Source of the DNA: Thermococcus onnurineus NA1
GTDB lineage: Archaea > Methanobacteriota_B > Thermococci > Thermococcales > Thermococcaceae
Length of the DNA: 64,000 bases
Assembly: GCF_000018365.1 (NCBI RefSeq)
Contig: NC_011529.1
Location: 186,001-250,000 of the forward strand
Direction of reading: 5' to 3'
Below are positions 44,101 through 64,000 of the stretch, piece after piece. The position numbers and the translations under genes are program-made. Each line of letters opens with the position of its first letter. Position 1 is the first letter of the stretch. The notes under the pieces are model-generated. The model made no database searches, had not been told where the DNA came from, and worked only from the letters and a program-made list of their open reading frames with translations.

Positions 44101-44117
44101 GTTATCAACCCTTGGTT
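44101..44117 (+). promoter_or_regulatory. SurR consensus site between the FmdE operon and the NifX-like gene
   Basis: GTT-ATC-AAC-CCTTG-GTT is a perfect match to GTT-N3-AAC-N5-GTT. It ends 8 bases before the TATA-like TTTTTAAT (44126-44133) of the NifX-like gene. It is about 15-20 bases upstream of a TATA-like ATTAAAAG on the minus strand for FmdE, so one site could serve both operons. Confidence 0.6.
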
Positions 44118-44164
44118 GCGGCAGGTTTTTAATGAATGAGTTTTCATGAATTAGTGGTGGTACC

Positions 44165-44539
44165 ATGAGGATAGTCGTGCCGATAAAGGACAATAGCGGC
44201 CTTGAGAGCGAGGTTTGCGAGCACTTCGGAAGGGCCAGATACTTCGTTTTCATCGACGTCGAGGATGGGAAAGTTAAAGGATCGGAGGTTATAGAGGTAC
44301 CCTTTAAGGAGCATGAACCTGGAGACCTACCCGCCTTTATTAAGGAGCACGGGGGAGAAGTCGTCCTTGCCTACGGCATGGGGAGGAGGGCCATCGCCTA
44401 CTTCAACACCATGGGAATAGAGGCCATCACAGGCGCAAGCGGAAGGGTGAAAGACCTCGTGGAGGCCTTACTGAAGGGAGCACTGAAGGTGGACCCCGAG
44501 TGGAGGAGCAAAGGCGATTTCGGACGGCACGAGTTCTGA
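44165..44539 (+). CDS. NifX/NifB-like iron-molybdenum cofactor-binding domain protein
   Basis: 124-residue dinitrogenase iron-molybdenum cofactor family protein: MRIVVPIKDNSGLESEVCEHFG, split in family blocks, then ARYFVFIDVEDGKV and VVLAYGMGRRAIAYFNTMGIE. These RNase H-like domains bind Fe-S or Mo clusters; there are no nitrogenase genes here, so a metal-cluster storage or regulatory role is more likely. ATG follows GGTGGTACC. The promoter has a SurR-like site upstream and an ATGA-GTTT-TCAT element (44136-44147) downstream of its TATA. Confidence 0.88.
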   Translation: MRIVVPIKDNSGLESEVCEHFGRARYFVFIDVEDGKVKGSEVIEVPFKEHEPGDLPAFIKEHGGEVVLAYGMGRRAIAYFNTMGIEAITGASGRVKDLVEALLKGALKVDPEWRSKGDFGRHEF

Positions 44540-44561
44540 ACTTTCAGTTGCGGTAAGGTTT

Positions 44562-44585
44562 ATATATGAAATTTTTTTCATATAT
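44562..44585. promoter_or_regulatory. Perfect 10-bp inverted repeat in the TDT transporter promoter
   Basis: ATATATGAAA (44562-44571), TTTT loop, TTTCATATAT (44576-44585). It overlaps the 3' part of the TATA element (TTTATATA, 44559-44566) and covers the predicted transcription start, so a dimeric repressor bound here would block initiation. As RNA it could also form a short hairpin. Confidence 0.55.
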
Positions 44586-44597
44586 TTTGGTGGTGAT

Positions 44598-45623
44598 ATG
44601 AAGCTGAACGTGAAGGACTTCGCCCCAAGCTGGTTCGCGAGCGTCATGGGCACAGGAGCTTTGGTACTGGTGAGCAAAGCTTACTCCTCAAAGCTCACAA
44701 TCCTTGAAAGTTTCGCTGAGTTCCTCGTTTATCTCAACACCGTCCTCTTCTTCGTTCTGCTGATTCCGTGGGTTCTCAGATGGATCAAATACCGAGAGAA
44801 CGCTCTGGCGGATCTACACCATCCAGTCCTCGGCAACTTCTACGGAACGATAGCCATAGCGATGCTCGTGCTCTCGGCCGATTACCTCACGGTCTTCGGG
44901 AATACAAGTGTGGCGTGGGCCTTCTGGCTCGCCGGGACACCGCTGACGATATTCTTCGCCCTGATGATTCCATACCTTGTTTTCACGAGCGAAGGAGTAG
45001 ATACCAAGGCCATAACACCCGCCTGGTTCATTCCGCCGGTGGGGCTGATAGTCATTCCGATAAGCGGGGCGAAGCTCATGACACTCGCTTCTGGAACTGC
45101 GAGAGAGGTTATGGCCTTCATCAACTACTTCGCCTGGGGCGCTGGGTTCTTCCTGTATTTAGCACTCTTTGCCATCGTGATGTACAGACTCATAACCCAC
45201 GAGCCGATGCCCTGCGGCATAGCGCCTTCGATATGGATAAACCTCGGTCCGATAGGGGCTGGAACCTCAACCCTCTACGCCCTCGTTAAAGCTTCCGATT
45301 TCATAACCGTCAAGGAACCGCTCTTAGCTTTCGGCTTGTTCTTCTGGGGCTTCGGCGTCTGGTGGTTCGTCATGGCAGTCCTGCTGACCATCCACTACAT
45401 CAGAAAGCTCAACCTGCCATACAGCCTGGCTTGGTGGGCCTTTATATTCCCCTTTGGAGCCTACGTAAGTGCCACATACAACGTTGGGACGACGTTCGGA
45501 ATAGGTTCAATCGTTAACTTTGGCTTCGCCCTGTACTGGCTGCTCCTAGCGATGTGGCTGGTGACGGGAGTTAAAACTATCGTGCACGTACTTTCCGGCC
45601 CCAAAACAAGAGGCAAGGTATGA
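44598..45623 (+). CDS. TDT-family (TehA/SLAC1/Mae1-type) transporter
   Basis: 341-residue membrane protein with about ten helices. It begins with the family pattern FAPSWFASVMGTGALVLV and includes HPVLGNFYGTIAIAML, PAWFIPPVGLIVIPISG, IWINLGPIGAGTS and WWAFIFPFGAYVSAT. Members move monovalent anions, malate, sulfite or tellurite. Substrate unknown here. RBS GGTGGTGAT precedes ATG 44598. The promoter carries a perfect inverted repeat. Confidence 0.88.
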   Translation: MKLNVKDFAPSWFASVMGTGALVLVSKAYSSKLTILESFAEFLVYLNTVLFFVLLIPWVLRWIKYRENALADLHHPVLGNFYGTIAIAMLVLSADYLTVFGNTSVAWAFWLAGTPLTIFFALMIPYLVFTSEGVDTKAITPAWFIPPVGLIVIPISGAKLMTLASGTAREVMAFINYFAWGAGFFLYLALFAIVMYRLITHEPMPCGIAPSIWINLGPIGAGTSTLYALVKASDFITVKEPLLAFGLFFWGFGVWWFVMAVLLTIHYIRKLNLPYSLAWWAFIFPFGAYVSATYNVGTTFGIGSIVNFGFALYWLLLAMWLVTGVKTIVHVLSGPKTRGKV

Positions 45624-49918: not shown

Positions 49919-51484
49919 TTAGAGGAGTTTTAATCTTGACGCATACTCCAGGGCGGTCTGGATGTAAAGCTTGTAGTCCATCGTCTGGGTCGCGGCAGGT
50001 TCGATGTAGTGCTGGAGTATTACCGGCGCGGCAAGACCTATCACAACAACCGCAGCCGCCAGCAGGAGCACCACGAATGCCATGCTCTTAGATTCTCCCA
50101 CTGCCACTTCTCTGGATGGCTTGCCGAGCCATATCTTGTAGAAGACGCGCATGTAGGCAACGAGTGCAGTTACTGAGCTGACAACGATAACCATCGCCAA
50201 GGCTAAGCTCTTCTCCATCAGCGCATCAAAGAGGAGCAGCTTGCTGAAGAACACGTTGAACGGTGGGATTCCAACGAGGCTGAGGGTTGCTATTGCGAGT
50301 CCGAGAGTTGCCATTGGCATCTGTCTGCCCAAACCAGCCATATCATTGATGTCCCTTGAACCGATGGCGTGGATGAACATGCCCGCAGCAAGGAAGAGTA
50401 ATGCTTTAGCAATTGCGTGGTTGATAATGTGGAATAATGCCGCCTGAAGTCCAAGCTGGGTGCCGAGGCCAACGGCCATGAACAGGTAACCCATGTGCAT
50501 TATCGTGGAGTAAGCAATGAGCTTCTTGACGTCGCGCTGGGCGTTCATCATGAGTGCACCGAAAAGTGCCGAAACCGCACCGAGAGCTATGACTACTGTC
50601 CCCAAGGTTCCAACGATTTTTGCTAGACCCGGTGTGAGTTCACCACCGTAAACAGTGTAGAGGAATCTAATCAGAGCGTAAACTCCAACATTTACTACGA
50701 GACCACTCAAGACTGCCGAGATTGGACTTGGTGCCGCTGGGTGAGCTTCTGGAAGCCAGAAGTGGTTCGGAACAATTGCTGCCTTTATGAGGAAAGCCCA
50801 CGTAGCTAAAGCCAAAGCAACACCAGAAGCAATTACAATATTACCAACTGGTGAACCTGTTACTGGAAAACTCAAACCATGAACCTTTGCACTCAAATCA
50901 GCAAGATTAACCGTACCAAAAGCCCCGTAGAGAATTCCAAGCGCTAAGAAGTACATTGTAGTACCAATTGCACCTATGAATGCATACTTCAATGCAGCAT
51001 GAACTGCGTCCTTCCTTCCCCTGTAGAAAGCTACGAGGGCGTATGCTGCGATGCTGGTGACTTCTATCATGACGAAGAGGTTGAAGGCATCACCAGTTAG
51101 TAAAACACCTATTAGTCCAGCTTCCAAGCCTAAATAGAGTGTATAGTACCACTCCAGACCCTCCTCGTGCTCTAGGTAGCGATAACTGTAAATCGCAATG
51201 AGGAACATCAGCGCGGCGGTGAGGAGAGTTATAAGTGCCCCAGTTCTGTCAACCTCATAAATTATGCCAATTGGAGCAGTCCAGCCGCCAAAAGTATATA
51301 TCGGCGGCTTTTCAGATGAGTACACTAGTTCGAAAAGCTTGAGCGCACTGATTAAGGTTAAACCCGTGCCGAGCAGTGCATAGGCTTGGATTATCTTCCT
51401 GTTGCCCTTAACTATGATCGAAGTCAGGGGGAGTGCAAAGGCAAAGATGACCGGAATCACAGGAGTTAGTCCAACCACGTCCAT
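49919..51484 (-). CDS. mnhD: Mrp antiporter subunit MnhD/MbhH-like
   Basis: 521-residue proton-pumping subunit of the NuoL/M/N and MrpD family with about 14 helices. YIEVTSIAAYALVAF-type Glu, KAAIVPNHFWLPEAHPAAPSP (Lys of the ion path) and LIAYSTIMHMGYLFMAVG are family landmarks; the first is written MIEVTSIAAYALVAFYRG in this protein. Last gene of the long fdh-hydrogenase-Mrp operon. ATG 51484 (MDVVGLTPVI) follows GAGGTGAGAGGC; the frame opens earlier at 51526 in the mnhE tail. Confidence 0.92.
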   Translation of the reverse strand: MDVVGLTPVIPVIFAFALPLTSIIVKGNRKIIQAYALLGTGLTLISALKLFELVYSSEKPPIYTFGGWTAPIGIIYEVDRTGALITLLTAALMFLIAIYSYRYLEHEEGLEWYYTLYLGLEAGLIGVLLTGDAFNLFVMIEVTSIAAYALVAFYRGRKDAVHAALKYAFIGAIGTTMYFLALGILYGAFGTVNLADLSAKVHGLSFPVTGSPVGNIVIASGVALALATWAFLIKAAIVPNHFWLPEAHPAAPSPISAVLSGLVVNVGVYALIRFLYTVYGGELTPGLAKIVGTLGTVVIALGAVSALFGALMMNAQRDVKKLIAYSTIMHMGYLFMAVGLGTQLGLQAALFHIINHAIAKALLFLAAGMFIHAIGSRDINDMAGLGRQMPMATLGLAIATLSLVGIPPFNVFFSKLLLFDALMEKSLALAMVIVVSSVTALVAYMRVFYKIWLGKPSREVAVGESKSMAFVVLLLAAAVVVIGLAAPVILQHYIEPAATQTMDYKLYIQTALEYASRLKLL

Positions 51485-51494
51485 GCCTCTCACC

Positions 51495-51980
51495 TCACTC
51501 CAGTATTCTCTTTGCAAATCTCTCAAAGTCCGCCGAGATTTCTCCCTTAGCCGTCTCAGGGTCCAGAGTCGTCACGTCAATCCAGTTTACGTAAAAGTAC
51601 TTGTCGTCCATGTCCACCACGACCGTTCCAGGGGTGTTGGTTATCGAGTTCGCCACGAGGGTCTTAGCGTAGCTCGTCTCGACACCAATAGGTACCTTCA
51701 CTATTCCGGGGTTGTAGTTGCCGGTGATAATCCTGATTATGACGTCTATGTGGGACTTCGTCTCTGCCACGAGCATATACCAGAGGAAGTAAATGACTCC
51801 CCACAGCCACCTCACTGGATTCATGGCCTTGGCATCATTCTGGACAACGTATCTCCCCATCAGCAACCCCACTCCTATTGCCACAACTGCTCCAGTGAAC
51901 ATGTCGTAGGGGCTGCTTGAACCAGAGAAGATTATGTACGTGATGAACGCGAGCAGGGCCGTTGGAATGACCCCCCTCAT
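51495..51980 (-). CDS. mnhE: Mrp antiporter subunit MnhE
   Basis: 161-residue MnhE with two or three N-terminal helices and a C-terminal cytosolic domain (VETSYAKTLVANSITNTPGT, then VVVDMDDKYFYVNWID), the family pattern of TLVANSITxTPGT. In Mrp and Mbh operons MnhE is usually the first Mrp subunit; here it sits between MnhC and MnhD. It overlaps mnhC by 4 bases. Confidence 0.92.
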   Translation of the reverse strand: MRGVIPTALLAFITYIIFSGSSSPYDMFTGAVVAIGVGLLMGRYVVQNDAKAMNPVRWLWGVIYFLWYMLVAETKSHIDVIIRIITGNYNPGIVKVPIGVETSYAKTLVANSITNTPGTVVVDMDDKYFYVNWIDVTTLDPETAKGEISADFERFAKRILE

Positions 51981-52369
51981 TCCTCACCACCCCTCTTCGC
52001 TATCTCCCTCACGTCAAGCGTGCCGTAGAGGCGGTAGAGCTGTATCGCTAGCACCGCGAGGAGCATGTTCACCGCCATTCCTATGACGACGGCGGTAATC
52101 ACTAGTGCCTGCGGAAGTGGATCAACGGCAGAGCTCACGAACCCTTCCAACGCTTCCTTTGAGAGCGATGGTAGTATCGGTGGGGCGATTGGATAGGTGA
52201 GGTGGTAGCCTATGAGAACGACCATGACGTTGACGGCATCGCCTAGTATCGTGAGAGATATGATTTTCTTCAGCATGTTCGGCCTAGCGATTATGCCATA
52301 CAGCGATACCGCCAACGTGAGCAGTAAGACGGTCCAGAGGTAAGCCCACAGGAACTCTGAAGTGCTCAT
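51977..52369 (-). CDS. mnhC: Mrp antiporter subunit MnhC (NuoK-like)
   Basis: 130-residue three-helix NuoK/MnhC subunit. LGDAVNVMVVLIGYH and DPLPQALVITAVVIGMAVNMLLA (Glu/Asp replaced by the DPLPQALVITAVVIG signature) are typical. An insertion between helices (LPSLSKEALEGFVSSAV) carries charged residues. It overlaps mnhB and mnhE by 4 bases each. Confidence 0.92.
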   Translation of the reverse strand: MSTSEFLWAYLWTVLLLTLAVSLYGIIARPNMLKKIISLTILGDAVNVMVVLIGYHLTYPIAPPILPSLSKEALEGFVSSAVDPLPQALVITAVVIGMAVNMLLAVLAIQLYRLYGTLDVREIAKRGGEE

Positions 52370-53139
52370 TTCTTCACCCCCAGGATTTTCTTGAACTTCT
52401 CCTCTGGGATGCTCAGAAGGAGGAACACCGCCGTGAATCCAACGCCAACAGCCAGGAACTCGAAGAAGTTGTAGTAGATTAGGGAACCACCGATAAGCTG
52501 ACTCTCAATCTCAGCCGGGAATATTGGCTGGTTCTGCATGATGAAGCCACCGCTGAGGAGGGGAACCAGAGCAACCAGGGCTATGCCAAGCAGTCCGATG
52601 GAACGAAGGATTAAAGCTCTGGTTTTGTCCAGGCCGTGGCCTTCCAGAGTGTATTTTGAGTATGCCGCTATTATGAGGAGCGGTGCCACAGCCAATGCCG
52701 AACCGCCCTGGAAGCCTCCTCCAGGCGTTAAGTGACCGTGCAGGGCTATTGAAGCTGAAACGGCAAGAATCATGACGACGATAACTTTAGTAACGTCCTT
52801 CACTATTGGCGTCAGCTCGGTTGGAGTGCTTTCAGCCTTCTTGACTTCTTTCTCCTGCTCCTTGGTGAGCCTGAAGACGGTCAGGCTGCCTATTATTGCG
52901 AGGAAGAACACTGCAGTCTCGAAGAGCGTGTCAATGCCACGGTAGTCCCAGAGGATTGAGGTGATAACCTCCGGGCTCTTGGCCGAGTAATCTCCGAAAT
53001 AGCTGTTTTCAAGGTAAAACTCGCCAAGGGGCCTAACTCCAGTACCCTCACCGAAGACCTGGAGTGAGATAACAGCGTAAGTCATGAGCGCGGCGAAGGT
53101 CAGGATTATAACCGCCGTGATGAGGCTTTTGCCCCTCAT
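52366..53139 (-). CDS. Fused MbhE-MnhB-like antiporter subunit
   Basis: 257 residues combining two normally separate Mrp/Mbh subunits. Residues 1-100 contain SILWDYRGIDTLFETAVFFLA, typical of MbhE or the MrpA C-terminal portion. After a charged linker (KEQEKEVKKAESTP), residues 110-257 are MnhB with ASIALHGHLTPGGGFQGG and FEFLAVGVGFTAVF. In P. furiosus Mbh these are MbhE and MbhF. The fusion fixes their 1:1 ratio. Overlaps mnhC by 4 bases. Confidence 0.88.
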   Translation of the reverse strand: MRGKSLITAVIILTFAALMTYAVISLQVFGEGTGVRPLGEFYLENSYFGDYSAKSPEVITSILWDYRGIDTLFETAVFFLAIIGSLTVFRLTKEQEKEVKKAESTPTELTPIVKDVTKVIVVMILAVSASIALHGHLTPGGGFQGGSALAVAPLLIIAAYSKYTLEGHGLDKTRALILRSIGLLGIALVALVPLLSGGFIMQNQPIFPAEIESQLIGGSLIYYNFFEFLAVGVGFTAVFLLLSIPEEKFKKILGVKK

Positions 53140-53394
53140 TCACACCACCTCATACCTCTCGGTCTTGCTGATGGCGAATATCAGCAGGGCGGAGTATATT
53201 CCCACGGCTATCGCTATGTAGGTGAGAACTATGTCCGGCGCCATTAGGATGTAGAAGGCTATTGCGTAGGCTATTGCCTGGACGGATGAAAAGCCCACTG
53301 CTTTAAGCAGATCCCTCTCCATCACCGCTAGATAGCTGGCTATGAATCCCAGGATGAGGGCAAGGCTGAGGATGAGCAGATGAACTTCAATCAC
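53140..53394 (-). CDS. MbhD-like subunit (MrpA C-terminal fragment, DUF4040)
   Basis: 84-residue three-helix protein: VMERDLLKAVGFSSVQAIAYAIAF and APDIVLTYIAIAVGI, corresponding to MbhD and to part of the C-terminal domain of MrpA. The conserved PDIxLTxxAV pattern is intact. It overlaps mnhG by 8 bases, and its stop abuts the fused MbhE-MnhB start. Confidence 0.88.
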   Translation of the reverse strand: MIEVHLLILSLALILGFIASYLAVMERDLLKAVGFSSVQAIAYAIAFYILMAPDIVLTYIAIAVGIYSALLIFAISKTERYEVV

Positions 53395-53743
53395 TCTTCC
53401 TCACCTCCCCGAGGTGATCCACTTTGGGCTCCCACTCCACGAGCTTGGCCCTGTGAGCGGCATAGGCCAAAGCGTGGCTTCCAGCTGGGGAGGCAAGGAG
53501 GACTATTATGCCGGTGATGAAGCTCGCTCCCGCTATGGCATACCTGTGGGGTAGGAAGTCCGCACCAAGGGCAAGCAGGGCAACGCCGAAGAGCGGAACC
53601 GCTGCACCGCCGATGATGCCCACGGTCGCGGCGTGCAGCCTAACGTAGAAGTTAGGGAAGCGGAGTAATCCTAATGCTCCGAAGAAATCGCAGAGGGCGC
53701 CTATGACTATCAGAAGCGCTCCTATGTAGAATAAAATGCTCAT
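53387..53743 (-). CDS. mnhG: Mrp antiporter subunit MnhG
   Basis: 118-residue three-helix MnhG: FFGALGLLRFPNFYVRLHAATV is the family signature (GxLGLLRFPDxYxRLHAAT). ATG 53743 (MSILFYIG) follows GGAGGTGGGAGC; the longer frame from 53803 is inside mnhF. It overlaps mnhF by the shared ATGA. Confidence 0.92.
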   Translation of the reverse strand: MSILFYIGALLIVIGALCDFFGALGLLRFPNFYVRLHAATVGIIGGAAVPLFGVALLALGADFLPHRYAIAGASFITGIIVLLASPAGSHALAYAAHRAKLVEWEPKVDHLGEVRKSD

Positions 53744-54024
53744 GCTCCCACCTCCTTGCTCACTAGGTGCTTGGCGATGTAGATATCCAGCAGATAGCCC
53801 CACAGTGCCAAAATCATCGCCCCGCTCACTAAGTAAACGCTCTTGAAGTAAACCGCAAGGATGGCCATGAACGCTGCCACATCGAAGGAGAGACAGTCAA
53901 CGGCGAGGATTATATCCGCTATCGTTGGACCCTTGAAGGCTCTGACGGCATAGATGATGAAAGCCAGCAGATAAACAGGTATCACAAACTTCATCAGTAG
54001 GAAGAACTGAGACTCAAGGCTCAT
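53740..54024 (-). CDS. mnhF: Mrp antiporter subunit MnhF
   Basis: 94-residue three-helix MnhF: RAFKGPTIADIILAVDCLSFD matches the RxxxGPTxxDRVLAxD signature. Starts 5 bases after the small gene at 54029. First Mrp-type gene of the operon, which makes the order F, G, MbhD-like, MbhE-MnhB, C, E, D. Confidence 0.9.
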   Translation of the reverse strand: MSLESQFFLLMKFVIPVYLLAFIIYAVRAFKGPTIADIILAVDCLSFDVAAFMAILAVYFKSVYLVSGAMILALWGYLLDIYIAKHLVSKEVGA

Positions 54025-54028: not shown

Positions 54029-54334
54029 TCACCCCCTCACTATCTTGAGCTTGGCGTCCGCCCCAAGCTCCTGGGCGACTTTTAAGAGGAGCTTCCTATC
54101 GTCCTCGGGCAACCTTTCCACTGGTATCAGTATAAGGTCGCCTATAGACAGGTCTATCTCGTTTCCCTTTGCCCCGAGGCTCTCCTTGATTATCTCGACG
54201 CTTTTCTCATTCAGCGTGCCTATTTCCTCTAACACAGCCATGTCGCCGGCGAAATGTGCCATCGCCTTCGAGACGTAAGGTGGATTAACGTACACCAGCT
54301 TTAACAAGTGCCAGGTGCCTCTTTTCGTAGGCAT
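54029..54334 (-). CDS. Hypothetical protein between hydrogenase and antiporter genes
   Basis: Up to 101 residues, soluble, mixed alpha/beta: LVYVNPPYVSKAMAHFAGDMAV near residue 12-34, then EIDLSIGDLILIPVERLPEDD and a C-terminal ELGADAKLKIVRG. No cysteines or membrane segments. The frame overlaps the HycG end by 50 bases, so the true start may be the TTG near 54307 or the GTG near 54295 rather than ATG 54334. Conserved position suggests an assembly or linking protein for the complex; I do not recognise the family. Confidence 0.6.
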   Translation of the reverse strand: MPTKRGTWHLLKLVYVNPPYVSKAMAHFAGDMAVLEEIGTLNEKSVEIIKESLGAKGNEIDLSIGDLILIPVERLPEDDRKLLLKVAQELGADAKLKIVRG

Positions 54335-55085
54335 CCTTCAACCTCCAGTACTCGTTTTCGAGGAACCTTATCGCGAACTTCACACGGGAATCCTTCTCCC
54401 TCAGGAAGTATCCGATGACTAGCTCGTGGAGCCTCTCCCTCGGGTTCTCGCTCTCCTGAGCCTTTTCCACGAGGGCCATGAAGTCCTCGAGAACCTTCTC
54501 CCTGTCGAAGTACCCCACGACGCGCCTCAGGGATTCTCTGAGCGTCAGGTAAATCCTCTCCTCGATGGGTCTCTCTGGAAGAACGAACTCAATCTCGTCT
54601 GCATAGTAGTACTCGCCCTTCATCTTCTTCTCCTTCAGGCCGAGGAGCTGGGCCAGCCCATATAGTATCTCCTCCGGACTCGGTGGACATCCTGGAATGT
54701 ACATGTCGGGCTTTTTCCCGTACTCCGCCAAAAGGACCTCTATTCCACCCGTCCTGAGCCTGTCGCTTCCCCTCTCAGGGTTCGGGTTGTAGATTGGGTA
54801 ACCGTTGTAGAATATACCACCACTGGACGCGCAGGTGCCTATGGCCACAACTATCCTCGGCTTCGGCGGCATCGCCTCGTAGGCTGCTTTGACAGCGTAG
54901 TAAGTCTGCCTCGTGAGTGGGCCTGAAACGAGGAGGGCATCGGCATGTCTTGGACTCGGCACGAGCTTTATCCCAAGCCTCTCGGCGTCGTAATAGGGCG
55001 TGAGCACGTCGAGTATCTCTATGTCGCAGCCGTTGCAGCTCCCACTGTCAACGTGGAAGACCCAAACGGACTTCAACCCGCTCAT
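54285..55085 (-). CDS. [NiFe] hydrogenase small subunit, HycG/NuoB-like
   Basis: 266 residues. The proximal 4Fe-4S cluster is bound by SGSCNGCDIEILDVLTPYYD (two Cys), AIGTCASSGG and PGCPPSPEEIL, the NuoB/HycG pattern. A C-terminal extension of about 110 residues (YADEIEFVLP... to the end), rich in charge and helix, exceeds E. coli HycG and is a feature of Mfh/Mbh-type small subunits. It faces the large subunit. Overlaps the ferredoxin gene by 4 bases. Confidence 0.92.
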   Translation of the reverse strand: MSGLKSVWVFHVDSGSCNGCDIEILDVLTPYYDAERLGIKLVPSPRHADALLVSGPLTRQTYYAVKAAYEAMPPKPRIVVAIGTCASSGGIFYNGYPIYNPNPERGSDRLRTGGIEVLLAEYGKKPDMYIPGCPPSPEEILYGLAQLLGLKEKKMKGEYYYADEIEFVLPERPIEERIYLTLRESLRRVVGYFDREKVLEDFMALVEKAQESENPRERLHELVIGYFLREKDSRVKFAIRFLENEYWRLKDAYEKRHLALVKAGVR

Positions 55086-55699
55086 CTCCTCTCACCCATC
55101 ACCTTTGAGCCTCTCGGATAGAGGGAAAGGAGAAGGCTATCCGCATAGGGCCCTTGAACCGCCAAGGTCTTGGCGCTCTCCTCCATCCTGCACTCCCTGC
55201 AGAGAAAAGCCCTCTCAGCTATGCCGTGCTGGTCAATGACTTCCTCCGGCAGAATCTGGAACATCTTCCCTATCTGCCTCTCGGTGAACTCCTCGTACCG
55301 CCCACAGCGCGGGCATCTGTAGAGCTTGTGGTCAACGACCTCGATGAGGTCCTCCTTGTTCGGCGTCGCTATCTCGAACCTCGTTGTGCCCTGCATCGCA
55401 CCGGTTGGACAAACCTCGACGCAGCGGTGGCACCTTATGCAGCGCGCGGCGTTGAAGACTATCCTCTTCCTCCCGTTCTCGAAGTCCCACTCTATCGTGA
55501 GCGCGTCCGGTGGACAGGCCCTAACACAGGCTCCACAACCAATGCAGAGGTGAGGATCTATGCGAGGTATGCCCCTATATTCCGGCGGCTTTTCGATATC
55601 AACAAAAGGATAAGAAGTCGTGACGGGAGCCTTCTTAACGTCCTCCTCTGGTCGCTTCCAGAACTTGAGCCTGTCGGTGAAGGAAATCGCCTGGGCCAT
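55082..55699 (-). CDS. Hydrogenase ferredoxin subunit, HycF/NuoI-like
   Basis: 205 residues. Two 4Fe-4S motifs, CIGCGACVRACPPDAL near 52 and CIRCHRCVEVCPTGAM near 87, form the electron wire toward HycG. A following zinc-like region CPRCGRYEEF ... CRECRMEES is an extra. The N-terminal part has no signal. Its start overlaps the HycE-like stop by one base. Confidence 0.92.
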   Translation of the reverse strand: MAQAISFTDRLKFWKRPEEDVKKAPVTTSYPFVDIEKPPEYRGIPRIDPHLCIGCGACVRACPPDALTIEWDFENGRKRIVFNAARCIRCHRCVEVCPTGAMQGTTRFEIATPNKEDLIEVVDHKLYRCPRCGRYEEFTERQIGKMFQILPEEVIDQHGIAERAFLCRECRMEESAKTLAVQGPYADSLLLSLYPRGSKVMGERR

Positions 55700-57450
55700 C
55701 AGGCCACCCCCTTGCCCTTCTGTATTGAGAGCATGTTGAACTGCTGCTCGTTCAGGGTCTGGGCCTTTCCGGTCTCAACGTCCACTATCTGAACCCTCTC
55801 CGTACAGGAGTAGCACGGATCTATGCTCGCTATGATGAGCGGGGCATCGGCAACGCTGTAGCCCTTGAGCATCTCCGGAACAGCTGGAAGGTTGTTGTAG
55901 GTCGGGGCTCTAACCTTCCAGCGGTAGACCTTGTTCTTCTTGTCAGTCATGACGTAGTGGATGACTTCGCCCCTTGGAGCTTCACTGTAGCCTAGGGCCT
56001 CTTCATACTCCGGAAGCTCCCCTATCGGCACGAAGACGTCTCCTCCCGGCATCTGGTCAATGGCCTGCTCTATTATCCAGATGCTCTCGAGCACCTCGTC
56101 CATCCTGATGAGGAACCTTGCCAAGACGTCGCCCTCCTTGTAGACTGGAACCTTGAAGTCCAAATCCTTGTATGCTGCGAACGGCTGATCCCTTCTAATG
56201 TCAATGTTCCTCCCACTGGCCCTTCCGTTCGGACCAAGGACTGAGTAAGCCTTGGCCACCTTGTACGGCAGAATTCCAACCCCCTCGGCCCTCTTGACGA
56301 AGGTTGCCGTACCGGTCGCTATTTCGATGAACTCTTCGACCTGCCTCCTGAGCTCCTTGATCTTCTCCATTATCATCTCCTTGCGGTAGTCGAGGAAGTC
56401 CCTCCTAACTCCTCCGACGATGTTGATTCCGTAGGTCTTCCTGTTTCCTGTGAGCCTCTCTGCGAGCCACATAACAGGCTCTCTGACGCGCCAAGCGTGC
56501 ATGAATCCCGTGTCAAAGCCCGTCAGGTGAGCCGCAACACCGGCCCAGAGCATGTGGGAGTGAATCCTTTCTATCTCCAGCATTATCGTCCTTATGTACA
56601 TGGCCCTCTCGGGGATTTCAACGCCGGCTATGTTTTCAACCGCCTGGGCGTAGCTCGTCGAGTGCTGGAAGCCACAGATTCCACATATTCTCTCGGCTAT
56701 GAAGAGCACCTGATTGTAGGTCAGTCTTCCCTCTCCTATCTTCTCGATTCCCCTGTGGGAGTAGAAGCCGCGGTAGTCAACGTCAACCACCGTTTCCCCC
56801 TTGACGAATATCCTGAAGTGGGCCGGCTCGTCGAGCGCCAGGTGGTACGGACCAATCGGAACCGTCATTGTGTCGGGCGGCCCGGGCTTGTAGTAGCACT
56901 TTGGCGTATCCATCGGCGAGGCCTTGTAGTCATGGTCCTTCCTGAGCGGGTAAACACCCTCCGGCCAGTCCTCCGGCAGGACGAGCCTCCTCAGGTCGGG
57001 ATGGCCTTTGGGGTTGAAGCCAAGCAGATCATAGACTTCCCTCTCCGCCCAGAGGGCTGCTGGAAGCTTCGCGGCTATGGAGGGGAACTCCGGGTTGTCC
57101 TCGTCGAGGTAGGCCTTCAGAATAACCCAGTAGTTCCTCTCCCCGTTTCCAGGCTCAACGGCAACGTTTATTACCGGAGCGTAGGTGAACTTTCCGGCGA
57201 TGTTCCTCTCATCGGTTCCTGTTCCCATCGAGAAGTGGGTTTCTTTTAGCTCGGAATGGTTGTGCCAGTGGAGGACCATCTCCGGAAGTGCCTCCCTATC
57301 AACGATGAACAGGTACTGGTTCCTCGTCAGCTTCTTGCACTCGAAGATCGCTCCCCTAAACTTCTCCACGAATTCCTTTAGATGACCATCCTCAAGGACG
57401 TCCTCAACTTCAGCCGATCTGCATCCACCCGCACACACGCTGCACTCCAT
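55699..57450 (-). CDS. [NiFe] hydrogenase large subunit, HycE-like (NuoC-NuoD fusion)
   Basis: 583 residues. Residues 1-170 resemble NuoC/HycE N-terminus (LPAALWAEREVYDLLGF, HPDLRRLVLPEDWPEGVYPL); the rest is the catalytic domain. The NiFe ligands are RICGICGFQHS near 255 and DPCYSCTER near 547. A 31-residue tail follows the DPCxxCxxR motif and should be cut by HycI after nickel insertion. A CSVCAGGC cluster at the extreme N-terminus is unusual and might bind metal. Group 4, formate hydrogenlyase-type. Full length is typical. Confidence 0.94.
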   Translation of the reverse strand: MECSVCAGGCRSAEVEDVLEDGHLKEFVEKFRGAIFECKKLTRNQYLFIVDREALPEMVLHWHNHSELKETHFSMGTGTDERNIAGKFTYAPVINVAVEPGNGERNYWVILKAYLDEDNPEFPSIAAKLPAALWAEREVYDLLGFNPKGHPDLRRLVLPEDWPEGVYPLRKDHDYKASPMDTPKCYYKPGPPDTMTVPIGPYHLALDEPAHFRIFVKGETVVDVDYRGFYSHRGIEKIGEGRLTYNQVLFIAERICGICGFQHSTSYAQAVENIAGVEIPERAMYIRTIMLEIERIHSHMLWAGVAAHLTGFDTGFMHAWRVREPVMWLAERLTGNRKTYGINIVGGVRRDFLDYRKEMIMEKIKELRRQVEEFIEIATGTATFVKRAEGVGILPYKVAKAYSVLGPNGRASGRNIDIRRDQPFAAYKDLDFKVPVYKEGDVLARFLIRMDEVLESIWIIEQAIDQMPGGDVFVPIGELPEYEEALGYSEAPRGEVIHYVMTDKKNKVYRWKVRAPTYNNLPAVPEMLKGYSVADAPLIIASIDPCYSCTERVQIVDVETGKAQTLNEQQFNMLSIQKGKGVA

Positions 57451-57453
57451 AAT

Positions 57454-58356
57454 TCACCACCCCACCAGCGCTATTATCAGGACAGCAAGGGACATCAGGA
57501 AGACCTTCTTGTTAAGGGAAACCGCCTGGTCGATCCTCAGGCGGGCGTTTGCAGCCTCAACGGCCACGGCAAGCGAATAAAGCAGAAACGTAACGACCAG
57601 CTGGGCGACGAGCAGTGCCATTGAGCTTGTTATACCGAGAGACCTCATGGCGGGAATCACAATCATAGACGCCAGCAGCCAGAGCAGGACAACCCTCTTG
57701 ACGAGCAGGGCGTACTTGAAGACTCCGAGGAGCCTTCCGCTGTACTCGGTGAGCGGGCCCCCGATTACTTCGGTTTCTGCCTCAGCTATGTCAAATGGAA
57801 CGAATCCGCCCTCAACGTAGACCGCGTAAGCCAGCAAGATGTAAGCTAGGGCAACGGAAAGCGAGAGGTTAGCACTGAAAGGCATCTCAGCGACGTTGAG
57901 CGTTCCAAGCTTGAATGCCAGGACACCGAAGACGACGGCCAGCACTGGCTCAATCGAGAGTATCAGCATGACCTCTCTGTGTCCACCTATGTGAGAGAAC
58001 GCGTTCTGGACGGAGAAAGCAGCAAGTATCATCACTACGCTGACCATCGCCATGACGTAGAAGAACACTATGAGGCTCTTTCCAAAAGCCAACACCGGCT
58101 CGCTTCCGAAGGGAAGCATTAGGCCGCCGGCAATGGCAGATGCCAGGGCTATGTACGGGGCCAGCCTGAAGATTGGGCCCTCAGTTGGAAGCACTGACGG
58201 CAGCTTGAGAAGCTTTTCGAGGTCGTAGAACGTCTGCATTATAGGCGGTCCTCTCCTGTACTGAATCCTCGCCTTTATCCTTCTCCCTATTCCGTCAAGG
58301 AACGGTGGAAGGAGGAAGAGGACGATCGGAGCAGCGATAATGCTTACGTAGTCCAT
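57454..58356 (-). CDS. Hydrogenase membrane subunit HycD/NuoH-like
   Basis: 300 residues with about eight helices. FLDGIGRRIKARIQYRRGPP and PFDIAEAETEVIGGPLTEYSG are the NuoH/HycD landmarks; the second stretch faces the hydrogenase module. ATG 58356 (MDYVSIIAAP) follows GAGGTGATGGTG; earlier Met codons lie within that RBS. It anchors HycE/G to the membrane arm. Confidence 0.92.
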   Translation of the reverse strand: MDYVSIIAAPIVLFLLPPFLDGIGRRIKARIQYRRGPPIMQTFYDLEKLLKLPSVLPTEGPIFRLAPYIALASAIAGGLMLPFGSEPVLAFGKSLIVFFYVMAMVSVVMILAAFSVQNAFSHIGGHREVMLILSIEPVLAVVFGVLAFKLGTLNVAEMPFSANLSLSVALAYILLAYAVYVEGGFVPFDIAEAETEVIGGPLTEYSGRLLGVFKYALLVKRVVLLWLLASMIVIPAMRSLGITSSMALLVAQLVVTFLLYSLAVAVEAANARLRIDQAVSLNKKVFLMSLAVLIIALVGW

Positions 58357-58366
58357 CACCATCACC

Positions 58367-60346
58367 TCACAACACAAGGAGTGCGAGTATTATCACCGTG
58401 GTCAGCATTGAAGCCAGGAAGAGCTCGTCCATGGACACCGAGATGCCCGCTGCCAGCACGGCGATGTTTTTGAGTAGATCCATCATCGGCGCGAAGAATG
58501 CCTCGTCCAGGTACCTGACGGTGCGGTGGCGAAGCTCGTCAAGGGTGAAGGAGCGCTTCTTCTCCCTGCCGGTGTAGACGAGGCCCCTGGCGAGAACGAG
58601 GTAGACGGACATCAGAGCAGAGAGAAGGACCCTTCCGACCTTGCCAGCGGCGCTTCCAAGCTTGTAGAGGCCCTCCATCTCGGTAAAGTACTGCCTGTAA
58701 TAGTCCCTGGCCTTCGCTCCATACCTCTCCTCCGGCAGGAAAAGCGCTCCAGTGTTCCAGGGTTTGACATTGGTCGTCTTTGGCCTGAAGACGAAGTATG
58801 AAGCAACCGCAATGAATGAAACCGCAAGGAGCAGGGCTATTGGCGAGAAGTACTCAAAGTCAGTGGATATCGAGCCCATTGTAACGGTGACGTCGCCGCC
58901 ATTCAATGAAATCGTTAATATCGGGTAAGCAATAGCCGGAAGTATTCCAACGGCAAGTGAAGTTAAGGCAATAATTCCCTCACCGAGGAGCATACCCGAC
59001 GGGACTTCCCTGGCGTTCTCAGTTCTCTCGTTCGGTTCGCCCCCAAAGGCAGAGGTGTAGAGCTTGAGCGAATATGCCAAGGTTACGGCGCTCATAAACA
59101 CCGCCATTACGGAGCCAAAGACGAAGAGGCCGATTCCAGAGTAGTAGCCGGCCTGGTAAATCATCCACTTGGAGAGGAAACCGCTGAAGAGGGGCACTCC
59201 AGCGAGGGAGAGCGCACCTATGACGGTGAAGAGCGACGAGTACGGCATTGCCCTCCTCAAACCACCAAGCTCGTTGAGGTCAGCGGTTCCGGCGGAGTAC
59301 TCGAAGTTGCCCGAGATGAGAAAGAGCAGCCCCTTGAAGAGTGTGTGATTGAAGGAGTGGAAGACTCCGGCGAGGAAGGCCAGGTAAGCCAGGCTCTCCA
59401 TGCCCATCGTCAGGAAGATCATGCCCATGCCCACCGCGAACCAGATGTAGCCCATTTGTCCAACGCTTGAGTAAGCGAGGAGCCTCTTTGCGTGAGTCTC
59501 TCTGAGGGCGTAGAGGGTTCCGAAGGTCATGGTAAGTATGCCGACGATAACGAGAACGTAACCAATGCCTTCACTGCATGGCAGGGCGTTGCAGAGGAGC
59601 CTTATCAGACCGTAAACCGCCATCTTCTCCATGACGCCGGCCATCAGCGAGGCTATATTGCTGGGAGCGGCTTCGTATGCATCGGGCACCCAGAACTGGA
59701 AGGGCACGCTTCCAGATTTTGCAAGGAACGTCACGAGGAACATCGCGTAGAGCAGCTTGAGCTGGACTGGAGAAAGGGAAGATGCAACCTCCCTAAGCGT
59801 GGCGTAATCAACGCTGAAGCTTCCAGTGGCGGAGTAGATTATGCCGAGGGCCACGAAGAGGGGCACCGTGTTGGCGAGCTGCATCGTGAGGAGGTATTTA
59901 ATTCCAGCGTCCTGCTCCCTCCAGCTCACGAAGATGAAGGAAGTTAGGGTCATCAGCTCCCAGAAGAAGACGAACCAGAGCAGGTTTGACGTCAGAGCCA
60001 CGAATACAATCGACAGCACGAACGTGCCGTAGAGGATGGTGTACGCCAGTGGTCTTCCGGTATCTCTGTGGACTTCCATATATGAAATGGAATACACTGA
60101 AACCACAAGGCTGAGCAGGGCTATGATGAACAGGAACGGGAGGGAGAGGCTGTCTATGATTAGGGGAATGCCCAAAAAGCTCTCCTGAACGGGAAGCCCC
60201 CTGGACAGGGCGTGGGCAGCTATGCCCAGAAGGGATAGGGATGCTATGGCTGAGAGGACGCTTGAAATCTTAATGCTCCGCTTAAAGTCTCCAATCAGGC
60301 CGGAAATCGCTGAGAGTGAGTAGAGCGCGATTGGAATTTCCATCAT
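58367..60346 (-). CDS. Antiporter-like membrane subunit, HycC/HyfB/NuoL family (659 aa)
   Basis: 659 residues with about 15-16 helices. FVFFWELMTLTSFIFVSWRE (Glu), FLAKSGSVPFQFWVPDAYEA (Lys) and KRLLAYSSVGQMGYIWFAVG are the ion-path motifs. A long C-terminal part after residue 540 (KPWNTGALFLPEERYGAKARDYY...) fits HyfB/HycC. Two such subunits lie side by side in this operon, and a third (MnhD) lies at its end. It starts 7 bases after the upstream gene. Confidence 0.9.
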   Translation of the reverse strand: MMEIPIALYSLSAISGLIGDFKRSIKISSVLSAIASLSLLGIAAHALSRGLPVQESFLGIPLIIDSLSLPFLFIIALLSLVVSVYSISYMEVHRDTGRPLAYTILYGTFVLSIVFVALTSNLLWFVFFWELMTLTSFIFVSWREQDAGIKYLLTMQLANTVPLFVALGIIYSATGSFSVDYATLREVASSLSPVQLKLLYAMFLVTFLAKSGSVPFQFWVPDAYEAAPSNIASLMAGVMEKMAVYGLIRLLCNALPCSEGIGYVLVIVGILTMTFGTLYALRETHAKRLLAYSSVGQMGYIWFAVGMGMIFLTMGMESLAYLAFLAGVFHSFNHTLFKGLLFLISGNFEYSAGTADLNELGGLRRAMPYSSLFTVIGALSLAGVPLFSGFLSKWMIYQAGYYSGIGLFVFGSVMAVFMSAVTLAYSLKLYTSAFGGEPNERTENAREVPSGMLLGEGIIALTSLAVGILPAIAYPILTISLNGGDVTVTMGSISTDFEYFSPIALLLAVSFIAVASYFVFRPKTTNVKPWNTGALFLPEERYGAKARDYYRQYFTEMEGLYKLGSAAGKVGRVLLSALMSVYLVLARGLVYTGREKKRSFTLDELRHRTVRYLDEAFFAPMMDLLKNIAVLAAGISVSMDELFLASMLTTVIILALLVL

Positions 60347-60352: not shown

Positions 60353-61804
60353 TCACCCCATGAACCCTATCTGAGTCACGAGCTTCACGCTTAGGAACGG
60401 CGCAACGATGGACAGGACTATTAGGACTACGAGGACAAAGCGCATCAGCGGGGAAACTTCTGCACTCTCCTGGAGGGGCTCGCTGAATACCATCCTCTTA
60501 ATCCATCCGAGAGATACCGCAAGGAAAACCGTGGCATCGGCCAACACTAGGAAGAGCGGAATCCAGCCAACCCAGCTGGTTATTGAAGACGCGTTCATGA
60601 AGAGATACGCCTTGCTGAAGAACAGGCCGAGCGGAGGAACTCCAGCCAGGCCGAGAAGGGCTAAGAACCAGCTTGCACCAACGACCGGAACGAGCTTTCC
60701 GAGGCCCCTAATCTTCTCCATGTCGAGCGTTCCAAAAGCGTAACTGAAGGTTCCCGCGGTGAGGAAGGCAAGACCCTTGACGAAAGCGTGGTTAGCCAGC
60801 TGGAACATGGCCGCCTGGAGACCATAGACAGAGCCAAGCACGGCATAGAGCACGCCAACGTACATCACTCCTGCCTCTGCTATGGTTGAATAAGCAAGGA
60901 GTCTCTTGGCGTCCTTCTGGAGCGGGTAGTAGAGAATTGCTATGAGTAAAGTTAGCGACACGAAGACGAGCATAACGTAGAAAGCTGTCTCCGGAATCGG
61001 TTGCATGAACTGGGTGACCCTGGCGAGCAGGTAAACGCCCATTTCAACCATTGCAGCACCGTGGAGAAAAGCGGAAGCAGGTGTCGGCGCCGCCATTGCA
61101 TCCGGAAGCCATGAATAGAGCGGGAACTGGGCGCTCTTGGTAAAGGCCGCAACCATTACGCCAAGGAACACGAGAAGCTTGAGCTCATCATTCAGGTTCT
61201 GGAGCGCATAGATGCTCAAATCATGGAGCTTGAGGATGCCAATGCCAACGGTGGTGTAGAGGCCCACCATGGCACCGAAGTTCGGCACAAGCAGGGCCTT
61301 GTATGCAGCCCTCTCGGCTTTTGGGCCCTTATAATACCCAACGACACCCCAGCAGGCGAGTCCCATTATCTCGAAGAATATGAGCAGCTGAAGCGTCGTG
61401 GAGGAGTATATGAATGCCAGCGTAGCTCCAACGAAGATGACCATCCAAGCATAGAACCTGCCCTTATCAGAGTAGACGGGGTGCTGCTTGTTTCTCTCGC
61501 TCATGTAGTCCACCGCGTAGAGAAGGAACAGCACGCCAGCCAAGCTCACGACAAAACCGACCAAAACGCTCATTGGGTCGATTATAACGCCGTAGACCTC
61601 ACCGAGGGAAGAAGTTTCGAGGTAAACGATATGATGAGCGCCACCGACTTTCAGGTATTCGAGGACTCCCACAAGATTAGCCAGGAAGGAAGACACAACG
61701 GCGATGAGCATGAATACATCGGCCTTTCTACCGTCTAATTTGAACAGGAGTGGACCGAGGAGCAGGGGGATCAAAAAAGATATAATGAAGGGAGAGGCGT
61801 TCAT
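60353..61804 (-). CDS. Antiporter-like membrane subunit, NuoM/MrpD family (483 aa)
   Basis: 483 residues with about 14 helices. IFFEIMGLACWGVVGYYKG (Glu), AAFTKSAQFPLYSWLPDAMA (Lys), PTPASAFLHGAAMVEMGVYL and KRLLAYSTIAEAGVMYVGV are family motifs. ATG 61804 (MNASPFIIS) follows AGGAGGTGCCAGG; the ATG at 61822 overlaps this RBS and the upstream gene. It likely forms part of the ion-pumping arm of the hydrogenase. Confidence 0.9.
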   Translation of the reverse strand: MNASPFIISFLIPLLLGPLLFKLDGRKADVFMLIAVVSSFLANLVGVLEYLKVGGAHHIVYLETSSLGEVYGVIIDPMSVLVGFVVSLAGVLFLLYAVDYMSERNKQHPVYSDKGRFYAWMVIFVGATLAFIYSSTTLQLLIFFEIMGLACWGVVGYYKGPKAERAAYKALLVPNFGAMVGLYTTVGIGILKLHDLSIYALQNLNDELKLLVFLGVMVAAFTKSAQFPLYSWLPDAMAAPTPASAFLHGAAMVEMGVYLLARVTQFMQPIPETAFYVMLVFVSLTLLIAILYYPLQKDAKRLLAYSTIAEAGVMYVGVLYAVLGSVYGLQAAMFQLANHAFVKGLAFLTAGTFSYAFGTLDMEKIRGLGKLVPVVGASWFLALLGLAGVPPLGLFFSKAYLFMNASSITSWVGWIPLFLVLADATVFLAVSLGWIKRMVFSEPLQESAEVSPLMRFVLVVLIVLSIVAPFLSVKLVTQIGFMG

Positions 61805-61818
61805 CCTGGCACCTCCTT

Positions 61819-62316
61819 TCATCTGATGAGGTAGGCCTCGAGGACGTTGGTCCTGTCGCCGATGTCCTTAAGCTCGGCGACTATCTTTCCTTCTCTGGCC
61901 CAGAGGACATCGTTTATGTCGCCGTACTTGAGGGCCTCAGTTGGGCACGCTGAGACACAGGCAGGAAGCTTTCCTTCGGCTCTCCTGTGGGCACAGAGGT
62001 CGCACTTGTCCATTATCTTGTTGTACTCGTCTATCTTTGGAATGCCGAATGGACAGGCCAGACCGCACATGAGACAGCCGATACACTTGAGGGGATCGAG
62101 AACGACTGCGCCATCATCGTCCTTGGAGAGCGCGTTAACTGGACACACTTCCATACATGGAGCCTTTTCACAGTGGCGGCAGTTGAAGGCGACGCTGGTC
62201 AGATCGGGGAACTCAAAAACCCTAATCCTCGCTTCCCCGTGCTCCATTTCACAGGCGACTTCACAGGCCTTACAGGCAATGCAGCGCTTAAAATCGATAA
62301 ATATCTTTTTGCTCAT
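61819..62316 (-). CDS. Polyferredoxin electron carrier (HycB/HydN/CooF-like)
   Basis: 165 residues with four 4Fe-4S motifs: CIACKACEVACEMEH, CRHCEKAPCMEVCPVNAL, CIGCLMCGLACPFGIP and CDLCAHRRAEGKLPACVSACP. This is the pattern of HycB- and CooF-like proteins that pass electrons from formate (or CO) oxidation to the hydrogenase. Starts 5 bases after the FdhA-like gene. Confidence 0.93.
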   Translation of the reverse strand: MSKKIFIDFKRCIACKACEVACEMEHGEARIRVFEFPDLTSVAFNCRHCEKAPCMEVCPVNALSKDDDGAVVLDPLKCIGCLMCGLACPFGIPKIDEYNKIMDKCDLCAHRRAEGKLPACVSACPTEALKYGDINDVLWAREGKIVAELKDIGDRTNVLEAYLIR

Positions 62317-62321: not shown

Positions 62322-64000
62322 TCACCCCTCAACCTTGGAGATCCTACACGCGGCCGTCTTCAACTCCGGCATCTTGGCGTATTCGTCGAGGACGTCCGTG
62401 GTCAGGTAGTTGAAGTCCCAGTGCCACGGCGCGGCAACGACGCCCTCCCTGATGTGCGGTGTAACCTTGGCCCTGAGAACCAGCGCTGCCCTCCTGGTCT
62501 CGACTCTCACGAGGTCGCCGTCCTTTATGCCGAGCCTCTTCGCGTCGTTCTCGTTGATCTCAATGTACTCCTCTGGCCACCTCTTGCTCAGGCTCTTGCT
62601 CCTGTGGCTCATGGTTCCGGTGTGGAAGTGGCCAACGAACCTGTAGTTGGTGAGCCAGAACGGGTACTCCTCATCGGGGACTTCTCCAGGCTCTTTATAC
62701 TCCACAGGAATAAGCTGGGCCTTTCCGTTTGGCGTGAGGAAGCCCTGGACAAAGAGCCTCGGAACCTCAGTGTTCTCGTCTGGGCAGGGTATCATACAGC
62801 CTTTGAGGTTCTTCTTGAGCCTCTCGGGTGTCGCGCCAGCAAGGGGCGGAATGATTCTGTTTATTTCTCTCAGGATGTCGTCTGCATCAGAGTAGTTGAA
62901 GTACTCTCCAAAGCCGAGCTCCTTAGCGAGCATAACAAGGATTTCCCAGTCAGGCTTGGCCTCTCCCGGTGCGTCAGCAGCCTTAAAGCTCCTCTGAACC
63001 CTTCTCTCGAAGCTTATGGCGGTTCCGTCCTTCTCAAACCATGCAGCCGCTGGAAGGACTATGTCGGCGTATTTCGCGGTCTCAGTAAGGAAGATATCCT
63101 GGACGACGAGGAACTCGATGTTCTTAAAGGCCTCCTCAGCCTTCTTGAGGTTCGGAAGGGCCTTGGCAGGGTTGGTTCCCATGACGTAGAGGGCCTTGAG
63201 CTTGCCCTCAAGGATTGCATCAATCATTTCAACGTAAGTGATTCCAGGCTTCTCTGGGATCTTGAAGCCCCATGCCTCCTCAATTCTCCTCTTGTGCTCC
63301 TCGGCGTGGAGCGGGAATCTTCCTGGCAGTTCGTGTGGTCCAATACCCATTAGACCAGCGCCCATACCGTTGTGGGCACCGGGTATAGCTCCAGACATGA
63401 CGCCCTCCTTTCCGAAGTAGCCGCAGAGAACCATCATCTCAGTGATAGCCATAACAGTCCTCGTTCCGTTGGCGTGCTGGTTCACTCCCTCGTTCGTCAG
63501 CAGGGCGGCAGTTCCAGCCGTTGCAAAGGTGATTGCGGCCTTCCTTATGAGCTCGGCAGGAACGCCGCTGACCTTCTCAGCCCATTCTGGAGTGTACTTT
63601 TCGACGGTCTTGGCGAGCTCCTCAAGGCCCTCCGCGCGCTCCGCCACGAAGTCCTTATCGTAGAGCTCCTCGGTGATTATGACGTTGAGCATAGCCAACG
63701 CAATGGCAAGGTCGGTTCCGGGATATGGCTGCAGGTGTATGTCTGCGTACTTGGCAGTCTTCGTTTTTCTTGGGTCAACGACAATGAGGGTGGCGTTGTT
63801 GTCGAGAATTGCCTTCTCAATGTACTGGCCGAAGAAGACCGGATTAGTTGCGGCTGGATTGTATCCCCAAAGGACGATAACTTTGGCCTTAAGAATGTCC
63901 TCGAAGGGGTTCGTCAGACCGGGGTGTCCAAGAACCATCCCCTTACCTGCAACAGCCGTTGACTGACACATCCTACACACATATTCAATGTTGTTGGTTC
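62322..64000 (-). CDS. Formate dehydrogenase alpha-like molybdopterin subunit (partial, runs off right edge)
   Basis: The C-terminal 550-plus residues of a bis-MGD oxidoreductase; the N-terminal FeS domain is beyond base 64000, and the frame stays open to the edge (reading NNIEYVCRMCQSTAV). Family markers are ILKAKVIVLWGYNPAATNPV, TLIVVDPRKTKTAKYADIHL, YVMGTNPAKALPN, ADIVLPAAAWFEKDGT and FHTGTMSHRSKS. The predicted metal ligand is Cys in CRMCQ at the place of selenocysteine 140 of E. coli FDH-H. Aligned by eye, E. coli His141 is Gln here and Arg333 is Pro (GAIPGAHNG). Both are thought to be needed for formate in FDH-H, so the substrate deserves checking. First gene visible of the fdh-mfh-mnh operon. 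Confidence 0.88.
   Translation of the reverse strand, partial: TNNIEYVCRMCQSTAVAGKGMVLGHPGLTNPFEDILKAKVIVLWGYNPAATNPVFFGQYIEKAILDNNATLIVVDPRKTKTAKYADIHLQPYPGTDLAIALAMLNVIITEELYDKDFVAERAEGLEELAKTVEKYTPEWAEKVSGVPAELIRKAAITFATAGTAALLTNEGVNQHANGTRTVMAITEMMVLCGYFGKEGVMSGAIPGAHNGMGAGLMGIGPHELPGRFPLHAEEHKRRIEEAWGFKIPEKPGITYVEMIDAILEGKLKALYVMGTNPAKALPNLKKAEEAFKNIEFLVVQDIFLTETAKYADIVLPAAAWFEKDGTAISFERRVQRSFKAADAPGEAKPDWEILVMLAKELGFGEYFNYSDADDILREINRIIPPLAGATPERLKKNLKGCMIPCPDENTEVPRLFVQGFLTPNGKAQLIPVEYKEPGEVPDEEYPFWLTNYRFVGHFHTGTMSHRSKSLSKRWPEEYIEINENDAKRLGIKDGDLVRVETRRAALVLRAKVTPHIREGVVAAPWHWDFNYLTTDVLDEYAKMPELKTAACRISKVEG

Follow-up and report, generated by a model that had tools for sequence, protein, structure and literature searches.

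Thermococcus onnurineus is a model for formate growth with H2 release, and the locus described here raises the question of whether an FdhA-like subunit that is encoded beside a hydrogenase in this organism acts on formate at all. The window, i.e., the whole stretch of 64,000 nucleotides that was analysed (T. onnurineus NA1, NC_011529.1, positions 186,001 to 250,000), ends within the gene for this subunit. A first-pass annotation had claimed that the protein lacks the equivalents of His141 and Arg333 of the E. coli formate dehydrogenase H (FdhF), and that it has either an active site different from those of the known formate dehydrogenases (FDHs) or another substrate, whose oxidation feeds the hydrogenase.

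The fdh1 operon and its FdhA-like subunit

The gene (window 62322..64000, minus strand) corresponds to fdh1A (TON_0281), an assignment that draws on published work (PMC8965080, PMC4463584, PMC5522443). The window holds 558 of its 691 codons; the start lies about 400 bp past the window end, and the N-terminal ~133 residues fall outside. The open reading frame, the TIGR01591 family, the PDB relatives and the fold match all point to an FdhA-like W/Mo-bisMGD catalytic subunit. The whole protein scores 713 bits against TIGR01591 (Fdh-alpha), above the cut-off of 666.25, FDHs rank first among the solved structures in a profile search, and the predicted fold of the 558-residue fragment matches FDHs, with a similarity also to NapA. 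The scores for the related families NasC (546 bits, cut-off 1100), NapA (287 bits, cut-off 904) and PhsA/PsrA (278 bits, cut-off 694) stay well below their thresholds, and Fdh1A lacks the Cys-Met/Thr signature of NapA/NasA, having Gln and Pro at the Met and Thr columns. Five further members of the clade to which Fdh1A belongs score between 653 and 691 bits against TIGR01591, on either side of the cut-off, which thus splits the clade (653 to 713 bits in six members), so that automatic names may differ among equivalent operons. The open frames and the intact operon rule out a pseudogene.

The remaining genes of the operon lie on the same strand. An FdhB/HycB-like electron transfer subunit (TON_0280, 61819..62316), whose 16 Cys residues are enough for four [4Fe-4S] clusters, is followed by a NuoL/M-type membrane subunit of the hydrogenase module (60353..61822), which is kept in the operons of other clade members, a second NuoL/N-type membrane subunit (58367..60346) and a NuoH-type membrane subunit (57454..58377). 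The [NiFe] hydrogenase large subunit (NuoC+D type, TON_0276, 55699..57450) has intact RICGICG and DPCYSC motifs, and it is accompanied by a NuoI-type subunit with two [4Fe-4S] clusters (55082..55699), the small subunit (NuoB type, 54285..55085) and an Mrp-type Na+/H+ antiporter module (mnh1, 49919..54024). The cluster has been described as fdh1-mfh1-mnh1 (PMC5522443) and shows the combination of FdhA, FdhB, hydrogenase and Mrp genes that characterises energy-converting formate hydrogen lyases. TON_0281 is predicted to supply the W- or Mo-bisMGD subunit to a [NiFe] hydrogenase complex that sits in the membrane and is coupled to Mrp. Past the end of the Mrp module, the window (43347-45623) encodes an FmdE-domain zinc finger protein, a small MrpORP-like protein and a TDT-family (TehA-like) transporter.

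Pocket residues of Fdh1A and its clade

Residues are numbered after E. coli FdhF, taken from NC_000913.3, and 50 sequences of the clade were compared with 38 standard FDH sequences, their sisters. The segment from GYFGKEG to ELPG and the FdhF segment from GNLGKPH to TYPG (34 residues each) align without gaps and place Pro at Arg333, as the first-pass annotation had described. Single-sequence, profile (HMMER) and multiple (MAFFT) alignments agree on this gap-free placement, which rules out misalignment. The Pro codon (CCC, 63381..63383, minus strand like all codons given here) stands in a column that holds Pro in 50/50 clade members and Arg in 38/38 sisters, and also Arg in the five FDH structures aligned. 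The metal ligand Cys (TGT, 63966..63968), at the position of FdhF Sec140, is present in 50/50 clade members, and the next codon (CAG, 63963..63965) puts Gln at His141, again as had been noted; the residue is Gln in 50/50 clade members and His in 38/38 sisters. The Cys-Gln and Pro-Gly-Ala motifs are common to all 50 aligned clade members.

Four further pocket positions differ between the two sets. Gln335 is replaced by Ala (63375..63377; Ala in 50/50, Gln in 38/38 sisters) and Gln339, which corresponds by offset to Gln447 of D. vulgaris FdhA, by Met (63363..63365; Met, Phe, Leu or Tyr in 50/50, Gln in 38/38). Met297 (D. vulgaris FdhA Met405, offset 108) is replaced by Glu (63489..63491; Glu in 48/50 and Met in 2, Met in 38/38 sisters) and Thr300 by Asn (63480..63482; Asn in 48/50 and Thr in 2, Thr in 38/38 sisters), with both ancestral residues retained in two sequences of subtype b. 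The proposal of an active site different from those of known FDHs is borne out, positions 141, 333, 335 and 339 being replaced throughout the clade and 297 and 300 in 48/50. Chance or a sequencing error is ruled out by Gln and Pro being fixed in 50 sequences, along with the low dN/dS.

The standard set has 197 conserved columns, of which the clade keeps 114 and has switched 12 to another fixed residue. Six of these 12 (His141Gln, Met297Glu, Thr300Asn, Arg333Pro, Gln335Ala and Val338Gly) lie in the loops of the active-site shell (Fisher p = 1.1e-4, a guide only, as the shell was picked post hoc). The first-pass annotation had left room for an Arg and a His that reach the active site from other positions; none is conserved in the pocket loops, and among the switched pocket-loop columns (50 versus 38 sequences) no compensating gain of Arg or His was found, the only new charge being Glu297 (48/50).

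In the crystal structure of D. vulgaris FdhAB, formate lies near H193, T450, R441 and Q447 (PMC10478512), which a constant, inferred offset maps to FdhF positions 141, 342, 333 and 339. The residues Met405, Thr408 and Gln409 of the same enzyme (PMC11134731) fall on FdhF Met297, Thr300 and Gln301, supporting the offset. Three of the four formate contact positions (H193, R441 and Q447) thus map onto columns that are changed in the clade. Replacing Met405 by Ala or Ser abolishes or reduces activity (PMC11134731), and the His and Arg, which are conserved in FDHs, have had their role confirmed by variants of the R. capsulatus enzyme (PMC13397495). The structure prediction for the 558-residue fragment has a mean pLDDT of 76.7, with a pocket loop (residues 204-212) below 50, and the pocket geometry was not taken from the model because the confidence in this loop is too low.

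The loss of several ancestral catalytic residues could also mean that Fdh1A is catalytically dead and serves the hydrogenase module as a scaffold or regulator, a role for which the superfamily offers a precedent in NuoG. We consider this very improbable: the clade retains the metal ligand Cys (50/50), Lys44 (48/50, with a gap in 2) and the Cys residues of the N-terminal [4Fe-4S] motif (CPWCSVGC), the new pocket residues are fixed and not drifting, and selection on the clade is purifying (dN/dS of 0.05 to 0.075). Judged from the alignments, the decisive change is Arg333Pro together with Gln335Ala, Gln339Met/Phe/Leu/Tyr, Met297Glu and Thr300Asn.

Distribution, physiology and proposed function

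The search began with 94 Thermococcaceae genomes and was widened first to the phylum and then to one genome per prokaryotic species. Near-complete clade members score at least 1,058 bits and everything else at most 873. The Cys-Gln/Pro clade was assigned in 38 of the 94 Thermococcaceae genomes, in one by fragments only. Beyond the Thermococci it turned up in four MAGs, three from Anaerolineae and one from a crenarchaeon (Acidilobaceae), for which binning errors are possible, though three bins agree. A sample of 396 genomes of the Anaerolineae class and 398 of the Thermoproteota yielded no further members, a viral collection gave no relatives, and a plasmid search gave only relatives below 60% identity. 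With the trait columns left out of the alignment, a tree made by a quick method, with SH-aLRT as the only support measure, shows the clade as monophyletic with a support of 100. It is best explained as having descended from FDHs and lost the formate pocket.

Hydrogenase genes follow fdhA in 11 of 13 loci compared (one of the others is cut by a contig end, and one is a lone pair), and also in the four loci outside the Thermococcales. The RICGICG and DPCY(S/A)C motifs are intact in every complete large subunit checked across the clade, and, within the reach of the contigs, the Thermococci, the Anaerolineae and the crenarchaeon have the same operon. The upstream neighbour is a TetR gene in most Thermococci loci and a sensor kinase with a response regulator in the Anaerolineae. 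No metabolic gene that could hint at the substrate is common to the clade loci, which share only TetR and hydrogenase maturation genes, and the TetR protein yielded no informative structural relative. In one Anaerolineae MAG (L080, 1-3868), genes for an ABC transporter with an extracellular solute-binding protein of the molybdate/tungstate-like kind are found upstream of the operon with the FdhA-like gene, on the opposite strand. The lone pair (L043, G089:C2:145000-164999, at 6618-11035) is a second Cys-Gln FdhA-like/FdhB-like pair with no hydrogenase genes directly adjoining; its neighbours are a TauE/SafE-type exporter gene and a DUF169 gene.

A linked formate transporter gene, a feature of the formate-using lyase types, is missing from the fdh1 cluster; the two FocA genes of T. 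onnurineus belong to the fdh2 and fdh3 loci. FocA occurs in 0/19 of the clade-bearing genomes that lack a standard Group 1/2 FdhA, and a Group 1/2 FdhA is present in 22/22 FocA genomes. Physiology and active site are confounded here, since the transporter is likewise missing from strains that make no use of formate, and its absence could mean that the enzyme handles internal formate. Formate growth is supported by the fdh2 cluster only (PMC5522443). A published classification divides the FdhA proteins of the Thermococci into five clades, of which Group 4 comprises fhl clusters only, mostly has TetR, and has neither a formate transporter nor a SurR site (PMC10025317). This description fits the Cys-Gln clade, which we matched to Group 4 by the text.

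Expression data come from several studies. The T. paralvinellae Group 4 operon goes down on formate (PMC10025317), and the Fdh1 cluster of T. piezophilus is up at 50 MPa (PMC8595942). In T. onnurineus, TON_0280 and TON_0281 were detected only in cells grown on yeast extract, peptone and sulfur and not in formate cells, and TON_0276 was raised in the former (PMC4463584). The authors of that study proposed that Fdh1 removes formate, and a later paper states the role of fdh1 to be undetermined (PMC8965080, 2022).

In line with that proposal, Fdh1A may still be an FDH with an unusual site, in which Gln replaces His and formate is held by the backbone or another residue, clearing the formate that arises from peptide catabolism. 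Removal of internal formate needs no transporter, the NCBI equivalog cut-off is passed, B. subtilis ForC sets a precedent for Cys-Gln, and formate removal is the published interpretation (PMC4463584, and PMC2432063 for the T. litoralis complex). We nevertheless regard this explanation as unlikely, since ForC has the Arg that is Pro throughout the clade, where Gln335 and Gln339 are lost as well, the pocket loops offer no conserved substitute, the T. paralvinellae operon goes down on formate, and Fdh2 and Fdh3 already provide the cell with two standard FDHs.

The appearance of the Fdh1 subunits only or mainly in elemental-sulfur cells (PMC4463584) would also suit a complex working in reverse, with the hydrogenase oxidising H2 and the FdhA-like subunit reducing, for example, polysulfide or thiosulfate. 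The PhsA scores point the same way, being 278 bits for Fdh1A and 265 to 302 for four other members compared with 245 and 223 for the FDH paralogues, as does the extra copy on G089:C2, which adjoins the gene for a TauE-type sulfite exporter. However, the sulfur medium is also peptide-rich, so that the two effects are inseparable, the scores remain far under the PhsA and DmsA cut-offs (694 and 778), the link to TauE occurs in a single genome, and the hydrogenase-Mrp architecture is that of H2-evolving complexes. A reductive role for Fdh1A therefore seems quite improbable to us.

The explanation that we favour, with modest confidence, is that Fdh1A is a repurposed FDH that feeds the hydrogenase from another low-potential substrate. 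The corresponding suggestion of the first-pass annotation gives the best fit to the sequence, the operon and the published expression. Fdh1A would not oxidise formate physiologically but another low-potential two-electron donor tied to peptide-based growth, probably one that exceeds formate in size or has a weaker anionic character. The pocket has lost a positive charge and amides and has gained an acid and hydrophobic residues, which suggests that the substrate carries less negative charge than formate and may be bulkier; Gln141 and Glu297 may act as polar groups in the pocket. The FdhB-like protein would relay electrons from Fdh1A to the hydrogenase, and the release of H2 would drive ion translocation via the Mrp module, making the complex in effect an "X:hydrogen lyase". 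As a guess, X could be an aldehyde from amino acid catabolism, which suits the energetics and the peptide-linked expression. Set against a substrate other than formate are the nearest family by whole-protein score and the closest solved structures, both still FDHs, the tolerance of Gln for His in ForC, and the report of formate-driven H2 for the T. litoralis "FHL", whose FdhA belongs to another clade and also lacks the Arg.

The complex, annotated as formate hydrogen lyase, is widespread: roughly 40% of the Thermococcaceae genomes have it, and there are scattered cases among the Chloroflexota and Crenarchaeota of vents. We give even chances to the claim that this complex of hyperthermophiles is an energy-conserving "X:H2 lyase", in which a substrate so far unrecognised is oxidised and this reaction is coupled to the release of H2 and the pumping of ions. 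The fdh1 cluster and its clade are already known. In the literature searched, mostly non-subscription papers, we found no statement that the clade lacks the formate-binding Arg and the neighbouring loop, and no Thermococcus FDH paper naming Arg333 and His141. Surveys of hydrothermal vent genomes count T. onnurineus fdh1 and the "Group 4 fhl" class as formate metabolism (PMC10025317); if Group 4 enzymes do not handle formate, these surveys overcount formate use and automatic naming by TIGR01591 misleads here. The Thermococcales would then have an electron input to energy-conserving hydrogenases in addition to ferredoxin, formate and CO.

Comparison with known systems

The Fdh2-Mfh2-Mnh2 cluster of T. 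onnurineus (TON_1563-1580) resembles the fdh1 cluster in encoding FdhA, FdhB, NuoL/N/H, the [NiFe] large and small subunits and Mrp. Fdh2A (TON_1563) is 49% identical to Fdh1A but keeps Arg-Leu-Cys-His and Met-Arg-Gly-Gln-Asn-Asn, and its cluster has a formate transporter gene; fdh1A comes with neither. Fdh3A (TON_0539) is 52% identical to Fdh1A, shares the Cys ligand and belongs to the same fold family, but it carries the same two motifs as Fdh2A and so has the full Cys-His-Arg set where Fdh1A has Gln and Pro. Alignment of the paralogues, which the first-pass annotation had called for, leaves Fdh1A as the only one of the three to differ; Fdh2A and Fdh3A are both among the 38 sisters, all of which keep Cys-His and Arg. 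Fdh3 was purified as a W-dependent, NADP-linked FDH that oxidises formate, with 241.7 U/mg with methyl viologen (PMC8965080).

A precedent for the Gln is B. subtilis ForC/YjgC (PDB IDs 8rqz and 9gzq), in which the Cys is likewise followed by Gln-Ser (SRYCQSPATAG). Arias-Cartin et al. reportedly pointed out this natural His-to-Gln change. Unlike Fdh1A, ForC keeps the Arg (PLRGHNNVQGA), and its partner is ForE and not a hydrogenase. ForCE1 oxidises formate experimentally (PMC13397495), and a Gln after the Cys is hence compatible with FDH activity. The loss of His was accordingly dropped as proof against an FDH, and of the two residues that had been considered central, only the Arg upholds that view, being replaced by Pro in all 50 clade members and retained by all 38 sisters. 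As Gln alone is compatible with FDH activity, it is the Arg and the surrounding loop that make the clade unusual, and the clade amounts to a natural experiment on the second-sphere residues that define formate chemistry. With Gln for His141 and the Arg kept, ForC is also a useful control for FDH annotation.

The T. litoralis Fdh-Mhy system (Group 3; L199 and L207) is similar to fdh1 in having an FdhA-like subunit in a hydrogenase operon and in having lost the Arg. It differs in keeping His, Gln335 and Gln339, with Ala in place of the Arg (LAGQNN), and forms a separate, more divergent clade. To go by these residues, the Arg has been lost at least twice, in the Cys-Gln clade and in Group 3. The Group 3 FdhA proteins (L199 and L207 of G077, L195 of G073), encoded beside soluble hydrogenase genes, have Ser instead of Met297 and Ala instead of Thr300. 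L199 and L207 are probably the published T. litoralis FHL, for which formate-driven H2 was reported but was not fully reproducible (PMC2432063). Lastly, E. coli NapA has a similar fold and, like Fdh1A, neither His nor Arg at the two columns, but it carries Met and Thr there, where Fdh1A has Gln and Pro.
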